Below, one piece after another: positions 10,457 through 33,097 of a DNA stretch of 37,741 bases. The notes beneath the pieces are model-generated. The model had not been told where the DNA came from, did not search any database, and was given only the letters and a program-made list of their open reading frames with translations. The first letter of the stretch is position 1; each line of letters opens with the position of its first letter. The DNA lies in contig JAFTVM010000039.1 in the NCBI GenBank assembly GCA_017465745.1, positions 1-37,741 of the forward strand. Direction: 5' to 3'. Source of the DNA: Oscillospiraceae bacterium (GTDB lineage Bacteria > Bacillota > Clostridia > Oscillospirales > Oscillospiraceae). Made by a program: the position numbers and the translations under genes.

Positions 10457-11515
10457 TTATCCCACGCTGATGGCCCAGAGGTTGCGGATCTGGGGCTCCA
10501 GGGTCTCATAGCTCCACAGCTTCTCGGAATTGGCGCGGCGGTTGGGATCGTTGACCCGGAACATGCCGTTCTCGTAGCCCACCAGCACTATGTAATGGCC
10601 TTCGGTGGTGAAGTCGCCGGGACCAACCACCACGATCACAGGATTGCCCTCACGCAGATTCTGGATGATCACGCCCTCGGCCAGGGGCAGCTCCGTGGAG
10701 GACAGCCCCAGCTGCTCGGCGCCCTCGCCGATAAAGGTCCATTTGGTGCCCATGCCCTGGGCATAGTAGCCTTCCTGCTCGGCATATTCTGCCATCTGAT
10801 CCGGCGTGTATTTTTCGTCTCCGGTCAGGTAATAGCCCACCATCGCGAGACAGGTGGGCGCGCAGCCGGTGATGGCAATCACATCACTGCCGTAGACCTC
10901 ATAGCCCCACCGGGGATCCCACTGCATGAACAGCGGCACACCCGCGCTGCGGTCGATGCTGCTCAGGTCGATCTCCATGGGCTGCCGGTTGTAATAGTTC
11001 AGCACAAAATCCGTGGTCTCGGGGTTCTTCTCCATCAGCTCCAGGAGACTGGGGGGAATACCGATCAGATCGGGACTGGTCTCTTCCGCAGGATCGGTCA
11101 CATCCGCCACCGTAGGCGGCTGGGTTTCGGGCTGCGTATCGGGCTGGGTGTCCGGCTGCGTGTCTGTCTCAATGATGGACTGGGCAGGCGGTTTCGTGGC
11201 AACGAGCTTCTCTTCTTCCCCTCCGGTGAAGCAGCTGACCAGGCCCACGATGCTGCCCACCAGCAGCAGTACCGCGGCGATCATATAGATGGCATTGGTC
11301 ACGGCCATCTGAGTGCGCAGCCATGCCCGCTTCTTTTTATTCATCCTGCTCCGGCGGCGCATCTGAGCCAGGCTTTGTCCGCGCAGTACCGCCAGGACAG
11401 CCAGCGCTGCGCCCAGCGCCACCAGCACGCCGCTGGCGATCCCGCCGGCAACACTGCAGCCCGACAGACCCAGGCACAGCACCGTCACCGCCAGCATAAT
11501 GACGATTCTTCTCAT
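10457..11515 (-). CDS. membrane-anchored C39-like peptidase domain protein (paralog 1)
   Basis: A 352-residue protein. The N-terminus has a hydrophobic segment with a lipobox-like LGLSGC (Cys20) and a second hydrophobic stretch. A basic segment (MRRRSRMNKKKR) and a further membrane helix (IYMIAAVLLLVGSIVGLVSC) follow, then a Thr/Pro/Asp/Gln linker with TQPD repeats. The C-terminal domain is Peptidase_C39-like, with GCAPTCLAMVGYYLTGD (Cys), GHYIVLVGY (His) and RVNDPN (Asp/Asn). The ATG at 11515 has GGGAGGT. An internal ATG at 11342 behind GGAG is a possible second start without the lipobox. It closely resembles the 32315-33097 protein. The substrate is unknown; an extracellular cysteine peptidase or amidase is likely. 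Confidence 0.75.
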   Translation of the reverse strand: MRRIVIMLAVTVLCLGLSGCSVAGGIASGVLVALGAALAVLAVLRGQSLAQMRRRSRMNKKKRAWLRTQMAVTNAIYMIAAVLLLVGSIVGLVSCFTGGEEEKLVATKPPAQSIIETDTQPDTQPDTQPETQPPTVADVTDPAEETSPDLIGIPPSLLELMEKNPETTDFVLNYYNRQPMEIDLSSIDRSAGVPLFMQWDPRWGYEVYGSDVIAITGCAPTCLAMVGYYLTGDEKYTPDQMAEYAEQEGYYAQGMGTKWTFIGEGAEQLGLSSTELPLAEGVIIQNLREGNPVIVVVGPGDFTTEGHYIVLVGYENGMFRVNDPNRRANSEKLWSYETLEPQIRNLWAISVG

Positions 11516-25886: not shown

Positions 25887-26564
25887 CTACAGAATACCGG
25901 AGGTGGCTCTGGTCTTGGCAACCCCGGTGCGGATCTGGCGGATGCCACGGATGGTATCCTCCCGCTCCACGGCAGTCCAGGTGCAGCCGGTGAAAACCTC
26001 GTCAGTCATGGCCCGGGTCACCGTCAGAACGAAAGGCTCCGACGGATCCGGCGGGTCGATGCTCCCCGGCCCCAGCAGCTCCTCCAGGGTGAACTCCCAT
26101 TGGGCATCGGAAATGGCGGTGATCTCATCATCGGTTTTTCTCCGGATGGAGAAGCCGGTGGCCCACTCCATATCCTGATAGCCGATGGCGATGGCATAGC
26201 CCGGCCCGGGGGACCAGCTGCTTTCCAGGGCCACACCCAGAAATTCCGCCGTGATCTCGGTGTAGAACACGTCCGCCGTGTTGTCAAACCGGCACAGCTC
26301 CTTCTGACAGACAGCGCCGTTGTCCTCCATGGCCTGGATGGCCCGCAGCGCCGTGGCGTCACATACCGCGCCGCCCTGGTCCGCAGGCCCCATGACGATG
26401 ACCTGCACCGCCGTGGTGCGTACGGCGCGGTCCACCCTTCCCAGCCGCACCGCCGCCACCGGACCCGTCAGCGCCGGGATCCGGCCGCCGGGATAGGCTT
26501 CATCGGCCCGGATGTCCACACCCTGGAGGATCTCAATGACCTTTGCTACGATTGTCTGCCCCAA
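25887..26564 (-). CDS. tail-terminator/head-tail completion-like phage protein
   Basis: A 225-residue protein. The first ~110 residues (QTIVAKVIEILQGVDIRADE; ALRAIQAMEDNGAVCQKELC; DVFYTEITAEFLG) resemble tail-terminator or minor-capsid proteins of siphophages. The remainder (GYQDMEWATGFSIRRKTDDE; FVLTVTRAMTDEVFTGCTWT) looks like a second small domain found in tail-tube-type proteins. It starts with TTG inside the end of the stopper gene, overlapping it by 19 bases. It is the last gene of the module. The two-part form may be native or a fusion left by loss of tail genes. The assignment is tentative. Confidence 0.55.
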   Translation of the reverse strand: MGQTIVAKVIEILQGVDIRADEAYPGGRIPALTGPVAAVRLGRVDRAVRTTAVQVIVMGPADQGGAVCDATALRAIQAMEDNGAVCQKELCRFDNTADVFYTEITAEFLGVALESSWSPGPGYAIAIGYQDMEWATGFSIRRKTDDEITAISDAQWEFTLEELLGPGSIDPPDPSEPFVLTVTRAMTDEVFTGCTWTAVEREDTIRGIRQIRTGVAKTRATSGIL

Positions 26565-26881
26565 TCATCTTCACCGCCCTTCTCCAGACACAGCCCCCAG
26601 CAGTACACGGGACCGCTTCCATCCCGGATCACCTCACTGCGCCGCATCAGATACGCCTTCCCGTCCAGCAGCACCGTGTCCCCCGCCGCCGCCTTCGGCT
26701 CCAGGGGGCCGATGTAGACGTACCGCCCCCGGGGGATCTCACCCAGGGGCGAATAGTCGGCATCGGAATTCTCCCAGCTTTTCGACCGGACGGGCTGAAA
26801 AAACGCTTTGATCTCCCAGCTTTCCGTCCCCCGGCACAGCGTCAGCGAGGTGCCGTATTTGTTCAGGATCCCGGCGATCAT
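26546..26881 (-). CDS. phage head-closure (stopper)-like protein
   Basis: A 111-residue protein beginning MIAGILNKYGTSLTLCRGTE, with beta-rich sequence (YVYIGPLEPKAAAGDTVLLD then GKAYLMRRSEVI). Size, position after the connector, and the pattern of an N-terminal helix, a Gly-rich strand and a C-terminal strand pair fit the head-closure (gp16/SPP1-type or XkdH/I-type) proteins. It would seal the DNA-filled head. It starts one base after the connector stop. Identity is mostly from synteny. Confidence 0.6.
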   Translation of the reverse strand: MIAGILNKYGTSLTLCRGTESWEIKAFFQPVRSKSWENSDADYSPLGEIPRGRYVYIGPLEPKAAAGDTVLLDGKAYLMRRSEVIRDGSGPVYCWGLCLEKGGEDDWGRQS

Positions 26882-26882
26882 G

Positions 26883-27239
26883 CTACACCCCCTGGAAGGA
26901 GAAACGGTCCTTCAGGTAGGGGGTGATCATCAGCTCCGCCTGGGCGCGCAGGCAGTTGGCAGCGGCGTCCCGGCTGCCCTTGCGAATGGTCAGATCCCCG
27001 GCGGTGATCTGCTCCACCGCCGCATCCTCATCCACCCCGTTCAGCGCCGCCAGGGCCAGGAGGCTGGCCGCTGCGATGAAGTCCGCCTTGCAGTCTTCCG
27101 GCCGCAGCCCATCCCGGAGCCTGGCCGTCAGGGAAGCGCAGGCCGCCATGCACAGGGCGCTCAGGATCTGGGACTGATGGACGGTCAGATCCCCCGCCAG
27201 CAGCATCGCCTGGGCGTAAACCTGTTCCGCCAGACTCAT
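26883..27239 (-). CDS. phage head-tail connector-like protein
   Basis: A 118-residue, strongly helical, alanine-rich protein (ILSALCMAACASLTARLRDG; DFIAAASLLALAALNGVDED; GSRDAAANCLRAQAELMITP). Helical proteins of this length directly after the major capsid gene are typically gp6/gp15-type connectors (adaptors) that ring the portal. The start overlaps the capsid stop (ATGA), giving coupled translation. The function is inferred from position and shape. Confidence 0.6.
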   Translation of the reverse strand: MSLAEQVYAQAMLLAGDLTVHQSQILSALCMAACASLTARLRDGLRPEDCKADFIAAASLLALAALNGVDEDAAVEQITAGDLTIRKGSRDAAANCLRAQAELMITPYLKDRFSFQGV

Positions 27240-28261
27240 ACGTGCAGCACGCAGGCAGCGCCGTCGCAGATTTTGGCAAAGCCCGCAATGGTGGTGATGG
27301 CGGCACGCTCCAGCTGGCGGTCGATGAGCTTGTCATACTCCACCAGGACATCCCCGGCACGGACCAGCTCCAGGGCGTAGCGGTTATCCAGGCCGATGAT
27401 GACGCCGTCATCGACGGTGGAGGTACGGTGCAGCTGGGCGCCCAGAGGGGTGGTCAGCTTGCCGGTGCCCTGGAAGTTCAGACCGGTCAGGGGGTTCTGC
27501 AGTTCCTCCACCTTCAGCATGGAAGTCATGGTGGGGGTGGAGCAGAGGATGGTATTCATGGTGTAGGGATCGAACTGGCCCCAGAACTCCACCAGCTGGT
27601 CATAGCCCAGGGTACCCTGGATGCCGGAGATGGGATCGGTGCCGATGGTGTAGGAAGCGGCGGCGTTGTCGTTTCCGTCCCCCTCCAGGATCACCTTCAC
27701 GGCATCGGCCAGCTGCTGCTTCTGGATATACGCGCCGATCTGGCGCAGCATGACGGAGAACAGGTCCAGCTTCTGGAAACGGATGGCCTCATAGGATGCC
27801 ACCAGCATACGGCCCCGCTTGGAAAGGGAAACCAGATGCTCCTTGGTCTTGACCTCAGTGGTGGGGATCTCACTGCCCTCGGCCACCTCCTCCAGGGCCT
27901 TGTCCGCATCCTCGGGAACGGAGTAGATGGAGCGGTAGTCCATGGCGTCGATGACGGTGGTGGTGGCCACGATGGCGGGGAGGATGTCGTTTTCCTCCAT
28001 GCCCTGGCGGACGGTGCGGGCGATGTACTCGGGGAAGAGGACGGCGGAATCCATAGTGGCGAAAAACTTCTCCACGGGAGAGGAGCCAGCCCCCCTGGCC
28101 CGGATGCCGAAGCGCTTCAGCTGGCGCTGAAAGGCATCGGTGCCCTCCAGGGCGGTGCCGCGGTAGTTCTCGCTGGGGTCCAGGGACTCCAGCACCTGGG
28201 TGAAGCTCATGCCGCTCTGGCGGTACATGCCCTTTTCCAGTCTCAGATTGTCGTAACCCAT
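27236..28261 (-). CDS. phage major capsid protein
   Basis: A 341-residue protein starting MGYDNLRLEKGMYRQSGMSF. The Ala/charged N-terminal ~60 residues (possible delta/scaffold segment) precede a HK97-fold-like core: DSAVLFPEYIARTVRQGMEE, MDYRSIYSVPEDADKALEEV, LSKRGRMLVASYEAIRFQKL, and the C-terminal GVIIGLDNRYALELVRAGDV. It would form the icosahedral shell. I use the ATG at 28261 since GGAGG is eight bases upstream; the ATG at 28267 is too close to it. A 101-bp repeat separates it from the protease gene. Confidence 0.85.
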   Translation of the reverse strand: MGYDNLRLEKGMYRQSGMSFTQVLESLDPSENYRGTALEGTDAFQRQLKRFGIRARGAGSSPVEKFFATMDSAVLFPEYIARTVRQGMEENDILPAIVATTTVIDAMDYRSIYSVPEDADKALEEVAEGSEIPTTEVKTKEHLVSLSKRGRMLVASYEAIRFQKLDLFSVMLRQIGAYIQKQQLADAVKVILEGDGNDNAAASYTIGTDPISGIQGTLGYDQLVEFWGQFDPYTMNTILCSTPTMTSMLKVEELQNPLTGLNFQGTGKLTTPLGAQLHRTSTVDDGVIIGLDNRYALELVRAGDVLVEYDKLIDRQLERAAITTIAGFAKICDGAACVLHV

Positions 28262-28319
28262 AATCATTACCTCCAAAAATTGATATGTTCACCGGCAAAC
28301 CGGCAATACAATGAAATTG

Positions 28320-28420
28320 AGTTGACAATTGACAATTATTGTGTCGCCTGCGGCGACATGTTTCATTCATTTCCGAAGGAAATACCATCATTGTCAACTG
28401 TCCATTATCCACTGTCAACT
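28320..28420 (+). repeat. miniature inverted-repeat element, family C
   Basis: About 101 bp bounded by AGTTGACA and TGTCAACT. Inside are TTGACAATT-type ends on both sides, a perfect 7-bp hairpin TGTCGCC/GGCGACA (28342-28348 with 28352-28358) and a second hairpin ATTTCC/GGAAAT (28369-28374 with 28378-28383). It lies exactly between the protease stop (28426) and the capsid ribosome binding site. There is no coding capacity. Similar TTGACA-ended short repeats are widespread in gut Clostridia. Confidence 0.75.
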
Positions 28421-28425
28421 TATAC

Positions 28426-29319
28426 CTAAATCAAGAATCCGCTCTCCACTTCCTGCTCTTTCCCGAAGCTGCACCCCAGCTGGGTCACCATGGGCAGGCT
28501 TTCCGCCAGGCGGTTCTCCAGAGCGGTCTTCACCGCCAGCAGATCATCGCCCGAAGCGCTGCCGAAGACGCTGCGCAGGGTCGGCTCCGCCACCCCCAGC
28601 TCCAGGCTCAGACACAGCCGCACCACATCGTCCTGAAGGGCTTTGGTATACTGCCGCCCCAACTGGGCGTCCTTGCAAAGGGCGCGATACTCCCCCTGGG
28701 CACCGAATTCGTCGGCCAGCTCCTTCAGCTTCCGCGTCCCGGCGAAGCCCTTCAGCACCCCGGCGGAGCGCTGGGCGGGCACCGCCACGAAGGAGAATTC
28801 GTAGGCGTCCATGGGCTCGCGCAGGATGGCGCAGCACAGCTGCCCATCGTAGTACTCCCCCTTGTGGTGGCCGCAGCTGCCGTACTCGCTGCCGCAGACG
28901 GAGCAAATTGCCATACCCATGGCGCAGCCCACAGATACTTCCCTCTTGATCCCCGCCTCAATGTCCGCAATGACCTCGTCGGCCATACCGCCCCGGCGGA
29001 TATAGGCCCAGGCCTTGATGTAGCTGACCCGGTCATCGCGCACCACTTCCGCAGCAAAAATTCTCGCCACCTGATTGTCCGCGCTCCAGCGGTGGTCCAC
29101 GATCCCCGTTTTGCCGATGAAGAGCTTCGCCAGCGTCCCCAGGGCATCGGTATCGAACCGCTCATGGTCCCGGTCCACCTGATCGTCGCACAGCCGCAGG
29201 GAGAACACATACACCTGCTCCGCCGTCATGGTCCCCTTGGCCTGGGCGTTGATGGCCGCCAGCTGGGCTTCGCTGGGTACCCCGCTGCTGATGATTTCCG
29301 TACCTTTTCGAATTTCCAT
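28426..29319 (-). CDS. phage prohead protease (S78/U35-like)
   Basis: A 297-residue protein. The N-terminal protease domain has VYVFSLRLCDDQVDRDHERF, the catalytic-type His at H76 in GKTGIVDHRW, and Ser at S129 in GIKREVSVGCAMG. A Cys/His group (C139, C142, C149, H151/H152) could hold zinc. The EFSFVAVPAQRSAGV segment is typical of the prohead protease family. The C-terminal ~90 residues are helical and may act as scaffold. It would trim the capsid N-terminus during maturation. GGAGGT lies in the end of the portal gene. Confidence 0.8.
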   Translation of the reverse strand: MEIRKGTEIISSGVPSEAQLAAINAQAKGTMTAEQVYVFSLRLCDDQVDRDHERFDTDALGTLAKLFIGKTGIVDHRWSADNQVARIFAAEVVRDDRVSYIKAWAYIRRGGMADEVIADIEAGIKREVSVGCAMGMAICSVCGSEYGSCGHHKGEYYDGQLCCAILREPMDAYEFSFVAVPAQRSAGVLKGFAGTRKLKELADEFGAQGEYRALCKDAQLGRQYTKALQDDVVRLCLSLELGVAEPTLRSVFGSASGDDLLAVKTALENRLAESLPMVTQLGCSFGKEQEVESGFLI

Positions 29320-29321
29320 AC

Positions 29322-30464
29322 TTAACCTCCGTTCACTTCGTTTCTTGCCCGGGCCGCCTGGGCGCGGTACAGATCCGCCTGGGCCTCCTGGGTGATGTCC
29401 TGGAGGCTGATATCGTCCCAGTGAATTTCAAACCGGTCATCCAGCCCCTCCAGAGCAAGATACGTCCGGCAGATCTTTGCCACGGCAGGCTCCACTGTCC
29501 GCCGGATGGCCCACAGCTCGGATGTCAAAATATCCGCCTGCTGGGCGCTCATCCGCTCCGTCGTCGTCCAGTTCAGTCCCAGCAGGAAGGGGGGCAGCCC
29601 GGTCTTGCTCACCAGCTGCTCCAGGATCTGCCGCACGGGAACCTCAGAATCCAGGATGGGCGCTTCCCCGCCGATGACCCTGATCTCCACATCCCCCACC
29701 GCCACGAAATCCCGGACGGTGCCGTTCTTGGCGTCCTCCATGGCCCGGCTCCATTCCGCCGCCACCTGTCTGCCCCGCTCTTGGGCCACCAGGGGGTCCA
29801 GATGTTCGCCGCCCTTGCAGATGACGCTGTAGCGCACGTTCCCCGCCCGTTCCCAGTTGGAACCAATGGTCTGGTAGATCTTCATCAGGATCTCCGCCAG
29901 GAATGGCATCCCCCGGAACATACTGACGCCGTAGGGGTGGGCGGGTTCCGGATTCATAGTGGTCAGAAGCAGCAGCTGCTGGTACGGCAGCGGCCGCATC
30001 ATGCCCCGCTCGTCAGGCCCCCACAGCACCATATCCAGGGGCGAGTCCCCCTGGCAGATCTCCAGAGCCGTCACATCCCCCCAGCACACGGCCCGCAGCT
30101 TCCCGCAACCCACCACCATCTCCCCCACGGCCCGGCCATAGGTCAGCAGGCTGTCCAGATATCCCGCCAGAAAGTTGTTGATGCCGTACTGTCCCCGTCC
30201 GCAGGGGACGGTGTCCAGGAAACGGCTCAGTTTCTCCTGGGTCGCCCGGTTCCGGCACTCCACCTGGAAGCCGCCGGACAGGCGCACCAGCTTTCCCACG
30301 GCAGCGTCCAGCACAGGGATGGCCTCCCGCATCTCCCGGTACACCCGTTCCTCCCCGGCTCCCAGAGGCACATACCCCCGCAGGGCGCCGAAGGGATGCA
30401 CCGCACCACCGCGCAGCTGGCACACCGCCGATACCCCATTGGGCTCCTTTTTCTTCCACTTCAT
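29322..30464 (-). CDS. phage portal protein
   Basis: A 380-residue portal with the family layout: AIPVLDAAVGKLVRLSGGFQ, then YGINNFLAGYLDSLLTYGRA, the LLLLTTMNPEPAHPYGVSMF segment, the long helix NWERAGNVRYSVIC, and near the C-terminus LVSKTGLPPFLLGLNWTTTE and QQADILTSELWAIRRTVEPA. It forms the dodecameric vertex through which DNA enters. The start at 30464 has GAAAGGAG. The upstream gap to terL holds the family-A copy 2. Confidence 0.88.
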   Translation of the reverse strand: MKWKKKEPNGVSAVCQLRGGAVHPFGALRGYVPLGAGEERVYREMREAIPVLDAAVGKLVRLSGGFQVECRNRATQEKLSRFLDTVPCGRGQYGINNFLAGYLDSLLTYGRAVGEMVVGCGKLRAVCWGDVTALEICQGDSPLDMVLWGPDERGMMRPLPYQQLLLLTTMNPEPAHPYGVSMFRGMPFLAEILMKIYQTIGSNWERAGNVRYSVICKGGEHLDPLVAQERGRQVAAEWSRAMEDAKNGTVRDFVAVGDVEIRVIGGEAPILDSEVPVRQILEQLVSKTGLPPFLLGLNWTTTERMSAQQADILTSELWAIRRTVEPAVAKICRTYLALEGLDDRFEIHWDDISLQDITQEAQADLYRAQAARARNEVNGG

Positions 30465-30489
30465 TTCACATCGCTCCTTTCAAGTTGCG

Positions 30490-30668
30490 TTCAAATTGTA
30501 GTTTGTCGTTCCGATATGGTACACCAATGTAGGGGACGGGTTCCCCGTCCCGTGAACCTTCCGATTACGAATTCGCCGATACAAATGTCAATTCGCCAGG
30601 TTTTATCGCCGGGACGGGTGACCCGTCCCCTACAATTGAAAACGTTAAGTGTACGACAAACTACAATT
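30490..30668 (+). repeat. miniature inverted-repeat element, family A copy 2
   Basis: The 179-bp element begins TTCAAATTGTAGTTTGTCGT and ends with its complement (GTACGACAAACTACAATT); the last few bases of the consensus end are missing where it meets the terL stop. It differs from copy 1 in having a longer middle: GGGGACGGG...CCCGTCCCC arms enclose about 60 extra bases, with a second inner palindromic GGGACGGG unit. It lies between terL and portal, and terL uses its end for the stop region. Confidence 0.85.
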
Positions 30669-31918
30669 CATCTTCTTCGCTCCACCGCACACGCCGCGAA
30701 CCCTGCTTCCTTCCGCCCGATCACCGTGGCCACGAAATAGCGCATGTCGTCCATGGCGTGGTCATGCGCCTTTCTTACCCGGTCGCCGGGGGCGCTGAGA
30801 TCCCAGACGTACTCGTCCATCTCCCGGATGCAGTCGGCGCAGCCCCGGCAGATGACGATGCGCCCGTCCTTCAGGCAATCCGACGTCAGCCGGATCCCCG
30901 ACAGCACATCGTTTTCCGCCTTGCGCACCGTCCAGCCCCGCCGCCGCAGCACCTCGATGAAGCTGGCAGCGGATGGATCCACGATCACCGCCGTGACCTT
31001 CCGCTCCCCCACCAGCTTCCGCAAGGCACCCGCATACTCCTCATCGGTCATCTGCCGCATGGCAGAGCGGGAATTGAAATAGAATTCCGATACCCGGTAC
31101 CAGACGCCCCGGCACCGGCCCCACAGCCCCATGGAGGTGGGATTGACGGTGCCGTAGTCGATGCTGACGTACCACTGATCGAAGGGCCCCGCCGGAACGT
31201 CCGCCACCATCGCCCCATCGAAGAAGTCGTAGACCCGTCCCTCGGCCTGGGCCCACTCCCCCAGAATGAACCGCCGGTAGAAGACCCCGGTGTACAGCCG
31301 CTCGTACCGCTGCCGGATGGCGTCCGTCAGGGACGGATTGTCCGCCATGGTAAAATGGAGCCGCAGGGCGTTGCGCTCCTCCGCCCCCAGCACCCAGGTC
31401 TTGTAGAACCAGTGGGTAGGACCTGCTGGGTTGCAGTTGAACCAGAGGCGGCTGCCTGCCACGGAGCAGCGGGCGCAGGCCTGCTCCACAAAGCTGCGGG
31501 GCATCAGGGCCACCTCGTCCAGCAGCACACCGGCGAAGGTAATGCCCTGGATCAGACTGGCGGAGCTTTCGTCCCGGCCGCCGAAGATGTAGAACTGATT
31601 CTCCCGGCCGTGGAAGCGCACCGTCAGCAGATTTTCCGACCGTTTTTCCTTCCACCCCAGTCCCAGCCCCCGCAGCCGGGGCAGGATCTCCGACAGCACA
31701 TTGCGCCGCAGGGATCCCACGGTCTTACCGCAGATGCCGAACCGCTTCCCGTCGAAGCACATCATGGCCCACAGAAAGAATCCCAGCCCCATGGCCATGG
31801 TCTTGCCGGAACGCACCGCCCCATCGCAGACGATGGCCTCCCTATGAGACACCCCGCTGCCCGGCATCCACCAGGTCAGGGCCAGGCGCTGCTTTTCGGA
31901 AAAAGCCGCATAGCTCAT
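30668..31918 (-). CDS. terL: phage terminase large subunit (PBSX/Terminase_3-like)
   Basis: A 416-residue packaging motor. The ATPase has Walker A GAVRSGKT at 33-40 and Walker B GVLLDE with acid residues at 134-135. The RNase-H-like nuclease has SIDYGTVNPT (D254), VIVDPSA (D314) and DHAMDDMRY (D390/D391). All expected acidic residues are present. It translocates DNA into the head and cuts it. Its start overlaps the terS stop (ATGA). The stop lies at the edge of a family-A repeat, so the last residues (VERRR) may be altered by that insertion. Confidence 0.92.
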   Translation of the reverse strand: MSYAAFSEKQRLALTWWMPGSGVSHREAIVCDGAVRSGKTMAMGLGFFLWAMMCFDGKRFGICGKTVGSLRRNVLSEILPRLRGLGLGWKEKRSENLLTVRFHGRENQFYIFGGRDESSASLIQGITFAGVLLDEVALMPRSFVEQACARCSVAGSRLWFNCNPAGPTHWFYKTWVLGAEERNALRLHFTMADNPSLTDAIRQRYERLYTGVFYRRFILGEWAQAEGRVYDFFDGAMVADVPAGPFDQWYVSIDYGTVNPTSMGLWGRCRGVWYRVSEFYFNSRSAMRQMTDEEYAGALRKLVGERKVTAVIVDPSAASFIEVLRRRGWTVRKAENDVLSGIRLTSDCLKDGRIVICRGCADCIREMDEYVWDLSAPGDRVRKAHDHAMDDMRYFVATVIGRKEAGFAACAVERRR

Positions 31919-32235
31919 GGTTCCTCTCCCCGCAGGGCTGACAAAAACTGCTGCATCTCGCCGCCGTCATCTCCGGCCACCTGAGCCAGCTGCTCCAGAG
32001 CCTTCAGCCGGTCGATGAGCCGGATCTCCACGGTACCCTTGTCGTTGCGCTTGACCTCGCTGAGCAGGCTCAGATCCAGCCGCCCCAGATTCGGGTCGTC
32101 CTCCAATGCCAGCCGCACGCAGTCATTTGCCTTTCCGAAGGCCAGCTCCGCCAGCCGCCGGGTCACATCCTCCCGGGTCACTTTCCCGGCCCGGATCCGT
32201 TGTTTCAGCGACGCCGCGCCATTTTCTCGGTCCAT
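31915..32235 (-). CDS. phage terminase small subunit
   Basis: A 106-residue protein starting MDRENGAASLKQRIRAGKVT. The HTH-like middle (REDVTRRLAELAFGKANDCV) precedes SEVKRNDKGTVEIRLIDRLK and ALEQLAQVAGDD, the pattern of XtmA-type small terminases. It recognises packaging-site DNA and delivers it to terL. The ATG at 32235 has GGGAGGGAGG. The longer frame to 32295 would run back through a terminator hairpin and is rejected. There is no evident promoter, so transcription may depend on read-through. Confidence 0.75.
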   Translation of the reverse strand: MDRENGAASLKQRIRAGKVTREDVTRRLAELAFGKANDCVRLALEDDPNLGRLDLSLLSEVKRNDKGTVEIRLIDRLKALEQLAQVAGDDGGEMQQFLSALRGEEP

Positions 32236-32314: not shown

Positions 32315-33097
32315 TTATTCTCCGGCACGAATGACCCAGAGATTGCGGAACTGGCTTTCCATCTCCTCATAGGTCCACAGTCTTTCGGAATTGGCATAGC
32401 TGTTGGGATCGTTGACCCGGATCATGCCGTCCTCTTCGCCCACCAGGACGATGAAATGGCCGGACGTGGTGAAATCCCCCGGCCCCATGACGCAGACGAT
32501 GGGGTTGCCCACCTCCAGATTGTCCATGATCCGCTTTTTCACCAGCGGAATTTCCGTCACATCCAGCCCCAGCTTTTCGCCGCCCTCGCTGATCAGCGTC
32601 CAGGAGGTGCCGTTGCCCCAGGCGCAGTAACCATTGTCCAGGGAAAACTCCACCATATTGTCCGGTGAAAACTTCTCATCCCCGGTGACGTAATACCCTG
32701 CCATGGCCAGGCACACAGGGCCGCAGCCCGTCAGGCCCACCACATCGGAGCCGTATTTCATATAGCCCCACCGGGTGTCCCACTGCATCATCAGCGGCAC
32801 ACCGTCAGCCAGGTCATATCCGCTCAGATCGATCACCTGCTCCTCCCGGAACGGATAATTCAGCACAAACCCCGCCGTTTCGGGATTGCGCTCCATCAGA
32901 TCGATGAGGCTCTCGGGATATTCGGAATAAGCGATCCCCTTTTCCTCGGCGTAGGCCTTTACGGCCAGCTCCGCCTCCGTGTGTTCCACCCAGTCAAAGC
33001 TGATCTCCCGCCAGAGCCCCGGCAGCACCGCCGCCCCGATGACGGCAGCAGCCAGAAGAAGCGTTGCGATGGTCAGCCACTTTTTCTTCGTGCGCAT
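32315..33097 (-). CDS. C39-like peptidase domain protein (paralog 2)
   Basis: A 260-residue protein with an N-terminal signal anchor (KKKWLTIATLLLAAAVIGAA). The extracellular C39-like domain has CGPVCLAMAGYYVTGDEKFS (Cys), GHFIVLVGEEDG (His) and IRVNDPNSYANSERLW. It shares the domain, spacing and the preceding SLIDLMERNPETAGFVLNYP with the 10457-11515 protein (LLELMEKNPETTDFVLNYYN), but has a simple anchor and no TQPD linker. AAGGAG lies upstream, and TATAAT at 33135-33130 (minus) is its likely -10. The substrate is unknown. Confidence 0.78.
   Translation of the reverse strand: MRTKKKWLTIATLLLAAAVIGAAVLPGLWREISFDWVEHTEAELAVKAYAEEKGIAYSEYPESLIDLMERNPETAGFVLNYPFREEQVIDLSGYDLADGVPLMMQWDTRWGYMKYGSDVVGLTGCGPVCLAMAGYYVTGDEKFSPDNMVEFSLDNGYCAWGNGTSWTLISEGGEKLGLDVTEIPLVKKRIMDNLEVGNPIVCVMGPGDFTTSGHFIVLVGEEDGMIRVNDPNSYANSERLWTYEEMESQFRNLWVIRAGE

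Follow-up and report, generated by a model that had tools for sequence, protein, structure and literature searches.

A tail-less cluster of phage head genes in Candidatus Faecousia as a candidate gene transfer agent-like DNA-packaging system

A compact set of phage head genes in a bacterial chromosome, with the packaging genes intact and housekeeping-type genes on both sides, raises the question of whether it is a dying prophage, a satellite or a particle system kept by its host. Such a module occupies positions 25887–32235 of contig JAFTVM010000039.1 (assembly GCA_017465745.1, Oscillospiraceae bacterium). The window analysed here, 37,741 nucleotides, is one whole contig of a 2.73-Mb, 122-contig assembly, and the genus of its genome is most likely Candidatus Faecousia. 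With a probability of about 0.7, the module is best explained as encoding a domesticated DNA-packaging particle resembling a gene transfer agent (GTA), a predicted head with at most a stub of a tail. Such a system was among the options named in the initial annotation and is supported by the congruence of the head genes with RpoB, by purifying selection and by a small terminase lacking a DNA-binding domain.

The head genes were compared with RpoB in 58 genomes from five families, using one tree built from TerL, portal, protease and capsid (1,424 columns) and one built from RpoB as a single marker (1,172 columns, frames chosen by similarity to one RpoB). The two trees had 41 of 55 splits in common, against a mean of 0.28 and a maximum of 3 in 500 shuffles. 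As many as 33 of the 34 RpoB splits with a support of at least 0.95 were recovered in the head tree. Conversely, the RpoB tree contained 29 of the 38 equally supported head splits, and there was a single strong conflict. The Mantel correlation reached r = 0.815 (largest of 999 shuffles 0.24) and 0.863 within the family, head distances being about 2.6 times the RpoB distances. Frequent phage-borne transfer would not yield such congruence, which points to mainly vertical inheritance. Judged by these trees, the module is part of an old phage-derived cluster that has been passed on mainly vertically from a time before several families of the order diverged.

On the minus strand, read 5' to 3', terS, terL, the portal, protease and major capsid protein genes and genes for 118, 111 and 225 amino acids (aa) follow one another, each as one open frame, as the initial annotation had described. 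The features are as follows (coordinates in the window).

31915..32235, minus strand: terS, small terminase, 106 aa from the ATG at 32235; PF03592, N-terminal DNA-binding part absent
30668..31918, minus strand: terL, large terminase; PF03237 and PF17289, structures 5oe8/5oea, ATPase and nuclease residues present
30489..30668, no strand: repeated element resembling a miniature inverted-repeat transposable element, 15-base terminal inverted repeats; copies elsewhere in the genome
29322..30464, minus strand: portal protein; phrog_30703, E 1e-146
28426..29319, minus strand: prohead protease, from position and conserved H76 and S129; phrog_16951, E 3e-96
27236..28276, minus strand: major capsid protein, start at 28276 or 28267; PF25209, phrog_3922, E 3e-104
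26883..27239, minus strand: head-tail connector-type gene (gene 6), 118 aa, from position and conservation
26546..26881, minus strand: stopper-type gene (gene 7), 111 aa, from position and conservation
25887..26564, minus strand: gene 8, 225 aa, terminator half at about 26235–26564 and tube-derived half at about 25920–26213, from profile comparison

Neighbouring head genes overlap or lie no more than 2 bases apart, save for 203 bases between terL and the portal gene and 149 bases before the capsid gene. The start of TerS is probably 32235, as suggested by the ribosome-site context and by homologs. The connector-type and stopper-type genes had no match in Pfam or PHROG, and phrog_16951 is annotated as of unknown function, so "protease" is a reading shared by this analysis and the initial annotation. 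Searches for solved structures by sequence gave none for the capsid and the portal and only distant ones for the sheath of relatives described below (best E 2e-9). TerL aligned over residues 3–400 with the solved large terminases 5oe8/5oea (E ~1e-134), and its Walker A motif, Walker B acids and nuclease acids lie where they had been placed from the window alone. K39 and T40 were kept in all 57 Faecousia TerL sequences that cover them (n = 60) and D134, E135, D254, D314 and D390 in 60 of 60, with D391 in 54 and E in its place in six. The histidine and serine claimed for the protease, H76 and S129, were present in 65 of 65 Faecousia sequences. The cluster thus shows one of the traits of a GTA, namely phage-derived structural genes including terminase, portal and capsid.

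Intactness was assessed in 66 Faecousia loci (the window, L087–L150 and L153). The frames of terS and terL were open in 60 loci each, the portal in 60 of 61 complete copies, the protease and capsid genes and genes 6 and 7 in 65 each and gene 8 in 57. The portal frame of L148 was not open, and gene 8 was short in L104, L113 and L149. No match was obtained for terS and terL in six loci, for the portal in four and for the protease in one, all on contigs starting near the next gene; in L111, the 373 bases 5' of the protease gene hold no portal match. Genes 6 and 7 were unmatched in L133 and gene 8 in five loci, with L133 at a contig end, and contig ends clipped one portal, one capsid and one gene 8. 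A search for conserved synteny, proposed earlier for this module, yielded about 60 other Faecousia loci with the same genes open and in the same order, far beyond chance. The view of a lone remnant did not hold, as the head genes recur across Faecousia and many relatives.

The ratio of nonsynonymous to synonymous substitution rates (dN/dS) was calculated pairwise by the Nei-Gojobori method for dS of 0.05–1.2, with two IMG/VR contigs included; as pairs share branches, the values serve as summaries and not as tests. The capsid gene was the slowest (median 0.15), followed by terL (0.18), portal (0.19), protease (0.23), the hub remnant (0.34) and terS (0.35), with five host families taken as a reference at 0.10–0.23. 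Host cluster 8 (dN/dS 0.92), which appears to mix paralogs, was left out of this reference. Among related genera, five close pairs gave values of at most 0.67 for every head and tail gene. A value near 1 for terL and capsid had been named beforehand as a sign of decay, and both proved host-like. By these ratios, the head genes are under purifying selection, weaker in genes 6–8.

Of 300 genomes in the family, 110 matched the portal gene, and they represent 50 of 106 genera; 108 of them had one match and two had two partial matches. The cultured commensal relatives Flavonifractor plautii ATCC 29863 and Pseudoflavonifractor gallinarum are among the carriers, with a fuller version of the cluster. 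A capsid match, always single, was present in 71 of the 136 genomes of Faecousia, and in 23 of the 40 that are of high quality; three of these 71 had one TGA inside the matched stretch, with open frames of 341–342 codons. Three capsid-negative genomes (G049, G135 and G195) were without the portal as well. Across the order, 71 of 394 genomes, belonging to six families, had the capsid, two of them with two matches. A class sample of 391 genomes, order members included, gave 11 capsid matches, the three outside the order being weaker (E 3e-27 to 3e-58). Among 50,697 phage records, only eight matched the capsid: five are "Bacteriophage sp." contigs without annotation, obtained from human faeces, and the other three are phage records at about 25% identity; TerL alone was widespread among phages (507 records). 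One 18.6-kb "Bacteriophage sp." contig carries the cluster up to the hub gene beside a frame that groups with RecG-like frames downstream of the cluster elsewhere (RecG being our reading of the sequence), which makes it probably bacterial chromosome. In three "Bacteriophage sp." records from human faeces (L283, MT835769.1; L284, MT835508.1; L285, MT835952.1), the cluster lies amid bacterial-looking frames, and they may be bacterial chromosome, perhaps packaged. One of the locus sets used comprised the best 80 of 326. No prior description of the cluster was found in the open-access literature, subscription journals and preprint servers being mostly outside this coverage.

What the cluster looks like elsewhere in the family was examined in 40 neighbourhoods fetched from the 110 portal-bearing genomes and picked by similarity and contig size; the profiles used for counting intact genes were built from these 40 loci themselves. 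In the majority, the head was followed by a terminator, sheath, tube, chaperone-like genes, a variable gene at the tape-measure place and a LysM hub gene, after which a hub gene, a spike-like gene, a gp25-like gene, baseplate J and a gp48-like gene completed the order. Genes for terS, portal, protease, capsid and stopper were intact in 40 of 40 loci, terL in 39 (split in L058), the connector in 39 (split in L080), the terminator in 37 (three partial), the sheath in 34 (six absent), the tube in 37 (three absent) and the hub in 34. Baseplate J was intact in 27 loci (five partial, eight absent) and gp48 in 11, both being often clipped by the end of the fetched stretch; the L082 and L048 stretches were also cut. 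In L061 and L072 (genus g66), the decoration and capsid genes precede the portal gene, a rearrangement with every gene kept, and a gene that we read as MreB-like follows the cluster in L061.

The region 3' of gp48 was inspected in 15 genomes. Two carried a holin (L287, PF05105, and L290, same protein cluster), two an M15 peptidase (L291 and L296, same cluster) and two a small protein that binds carbohydrate, with Pfam confirming one case of each; no integrase or fibre was recognised there among the scanned genes, and the rest looked host-like. The holin and M15 peptidase are likely leftovers of an ancestral lysis module. Finding the rest of a prophage in relatives had been considered in advance as an argument against a self-contained head module. 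This came true in part, as a structural tail, sometimes with a holin or M15 peptidase, was found in the same cluster of other genera, and the head-only form is accordingly a derived state.

Beyond the family, 18 of 20 loci had terL, portal, protease and capsid. By profiles, nine of these 18 had hub and baseplate genes with no recognisable sheath or tube, four had a sheath and five extended little past the head. Loci of family f23 (L203, L204, L206, L207, L209–L212 and L218) have hub and baseplate genes and no recognisable sheath or tube, a different tail shortening.

The sheath belonging to the cluster was detected by profile search in 0 of 136 Faecousia genomes. As a control, the same profile was applied to 24 chosen genomes, of which 16 were positive, namely all 14 picked for a full tail together with G161 and G243; it gave nothing in the genome of the window, in two further Faecousia, in four of the five genomes of genus g52 or in G165, in which the portal was also absent. 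Going by these searches, Faecousia has lost a contractile tail that is present in most sampled relatives. The g52 loci L051, L053 and L054 retain the terminator, the tube and a shortened hub gene. Such a shortened hub gene also lies 3' of gene 8 in many Faecousia loci and in none of the window's subclade.

A trace of the tail is predicted in gene 8. A profile of 54 Faecousia gene 8 sequences matched the terminator profile over columns 5–111 (probability 98.6%, E 1e-15) and the tube profile over columns 121–227 (96.9%, E 1e-10). Both target profiles came from full-tail genera, with Faecousia sequences excluded from the terminator profile. Seven other cluster profiles used as controls gave at most 0.4%, and terminator against tube gave 0.3%. 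A five-sequence profile of the window's own subclade reached 95% for the terminator half and only 49% for the tube half, so the tube half of the window's gene rests on orthology (61–65% identity to three subclade members). According to these profile comparisons, gene 8 arose when a tail terminator and a tail tube were fused. The label "tail-terminator-like" given initially to the eighth gene therefore suits its first half, the second half being derived from the tail tube. On a tree of 59 loci, the hub state changes five times, the tube half five times and the decoration gene once; the tube-half and hub counts hinge on gene calls, and weight is placed only on the six loci with a short last gene discussed below.

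The small terminase bears on what might be packaged. The window TerS covers only positions 53–128 of the 141 of Terminase_2 (PF03592), and two more Faecousia TerS match from position 50. In two full-tail relatives, one TerS matches from position 63 and the other gave no match; five longer TerS of related lineages match from position 5 or 6. By domain coverage, the window TerS is thus without the DNA-binding domain, as in the Rhodobacter GTA, whose TerS also appears to lack it (PMC6854486). As the motor, the nuclease, the portal, the protease and the capsid are all retained, packaging of DNA without specificity would be the simplest function on which selection could act.

Some cells would assemble capsids, and the terminase without its recognition domain would load pieces of the host chromosome, probably by a headful mechanism. 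The fused terminator-tube protein could form a ring closing or prolonging the portal. Particles would leave through cell lysis by functions encoded elsewhere and might serve as a very short-tailed or tail-less GTA. The more detailed history, in which a phage domesticated across the order turned, in Faecousia, from a contractile-tailed particle into a tail-less carrier of host chromosome pieces with a single ring of fused terminator-tube protein that closes or opens the capsid, is proposed tentatively and judged somewhat doubtful; such a GTA would function with no tail at all.

Several observations weigh against a maintained packaging system. Genes 6–8 evolve fast (median dN/dS 0.47, 0.52 and 0.76), and the last gene has merely 103–130 aa in six loci (L102, L104, L113, L114, L144 and L149). 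In the window, the repeated element splits terL off from the portal gene, and no lysis, regulator or receptor-binding gene was seen at the locus. No capsid match was obtained in 65 of 136 Faecousia genomes, 17 of the 40 high-quality ones among them, which makes the cluster dispensable. Frameshifts, one each, occurred in four of five IMG/VR contigs with portals 79–83% identical (L039–L043), three of them in terL: one in L040, another common to L041 and L042, and one in the protease of L039, with none in L043. In such short contigs from metagenomes, real decay looks no different from sequencing error, although the break common to L041 and L042 suggests that some frameshifts are real. Frequent frameshifts in relatives, named beforehand as a sign of decay, were thus seen in these near contigs, whereas the 66 genome loci had a single broken frame, the portal of L148, from terS to gene 7. 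Together with the repeated losses of tail genes, the broken frames and the Faecousia genomes lacking a capsid, about half, would suit a neutrally decaying defective prophage whose head genes were kept by chance. We regard this as very unlikely, since about 60 species have all core head genes open with host-like dN/dS, the catalytic residues are fixed and the head tree tracks RpoB.

A satellite comparable to the capsid-forming phage-inducible chromosomal islands (PICIs), making its own heads and borrowing tails from a helper phage, would account for a terminase, portal and capsid with no tail, and the terminator half of gene 8 could accept a foreign tail. This idea from the initial annotation was not borne out and is very unlikely, as no integrase or replication genes were found at the locus, inheritance tracks RpoB and family relatives have their own tail; moreover, capsid-forming PICIs package their own genome (PMC10803314), whereas TerS here lacks the recognition domain. 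An encapsulin-like container for proteins or metabolites, without DNA, would fit the capsid as the slowest-evolving gene and the loss of the tail. This container reading, likewise an option of the initial annotation, is also quite unlikely: an encapsulin-like capsid would come without packaging motor and portal, but terminase, portal and protease are retained with their catalytic residues and low dN/dS, 0.18 for terL. Finally, the tail, fibre and lysis genes might reside elsewhere in the genome and complete full tailed particles. FpGTA of Faecalibacterium is encoded at two loci, which one strain carries at a distance of about 125 kb (PMC12946183), and divergent baseplate-J-like genes were detected in 7 of 136 Faecousia genomes. 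Such a split GTA is unlikely, since the cluster's own sheath was absent from all 136 genomes (unrelated tail, fibre and lysis genes lying outside this genome-wide search) and the seven J-like matches reached only E 1e-12 to 1e-41, with none from the window's genome. The domesticated packaging particle is therefore retained as the preferred reading.

The surroundings of the module are bacterial in character. The housekeeping-type flanks noted at the outset were confirmed: one side carries hisC-B-H-A-F-IE together with a C39-like peptidase, the other a small gene, a major facilitator superfamily transporter and an rRNA methylase; alanine racemase is also among the flanking host genes, and the small gene has no Pfam match. 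The GC content of the module is 63.0% and that of the two flanks 60.1% and 58.3%. The scan covered nearly all window genes (left-end frames 1–351 and 414–689 lie outside it; 704–1594 and 1933–2964 were scanned with PHROGs only), and within it no replication or integration gene was seen at the cluster. The absence of integrase, phage repressor, tail, baseplate and lysis families, claimed initially, holds for the scanned window genes, with the exception that half of gene 8 is tube-derived; there is no sheath, separate tube gene, hub or baseplate gene in the window. A plasmid comparison gave no near match, and an RNA-family scan gave a tRNA and nothing else.

The repeated element of about 180 bp (30489–30668) has at least 39 other copies in the genome at 94–99% identity, 40 of 217 candidates having been scored. 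It is an insertion and does not belong to the head module. It was examined in the window and L002–L008, and many copies lie at contig ends, so the element probably fragments the assembly. A ParB-like partition protein (704–1594; phrog_4715, E 1e-55) is encoded close to the contig end, distant from the head module. Two C39-like peptidase genes were noted in the window (10457–11515 and 32315–33097), one of which adjoins the module; among the 66 Faecousia loci, within the fetched stretches, it was matched only in the window and L130.

If the preferred reading is right, chromosome-packaging particles may be an old, selected trait in a dominant gut order. The natural deletion series, from a full contractile tail through the loss of the sheath to the fused stub and the terminator only, could then inform on the minimum needs of a DNA-carrying particle.

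Among known systems, PBSX of Bacillus subtilis has the order portal, protease, capsid, sheath, tube, LysM protein, hub, gp25-like, baseplate J and gp48-like. The full form in relatives resembles it, the likeness concerning gene order only; the window differs in lacking a sheath, a separate tube gene, a hub and a baseplate, with contractile tail genes in most sampled relatives and none in Faecousia. Few GTAs beyond the Alphaproteobacteria are known, and RcGTA of Rhodobacter capsulatus and the Faecousia cluster are not known to share the same phage ancestor. RcGTA is likewise a vertically inherited structural cluster without self-replication and with a TerS lacking the DNA-binding domain (PMC6854486, PMC11841831), but it is alphaproteobacterial, tailed and experimentally shown. 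Capsid-forming PICIs also have their own head and packaging genes and no tail genes, yet they are mobile satellites packaging their own genome (PMC10803314), whereas the Faecousia cluster tracks the host tree and no mobility genes were seen at it.

The closest parallel by description is FpGTA. Faecalibacterium prausnitzii, a gut bacterium treated beside Oscillospiraceae, forms particles of about 40 nm that have no tail and carry about 9 kb of DNA, and its head and packaging operon has no visible tail and a TerS without an obvious DNA-binding domain (PMC12946183). It differs in being bound to Faecalibacterium, the only genus for which the operon is given there, in having baseplate, fibre and lysis genes in a second operon and in being called podovirus-like. 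In the same report, GTA-like packaging of host DNA in faecal viromes was assigned to Ruminococcaceae in 17 of 25 events and to Oscillospiraceae in three of 25 (PMC12946183), and for the latter the cluster described here is a gene-level candidate.

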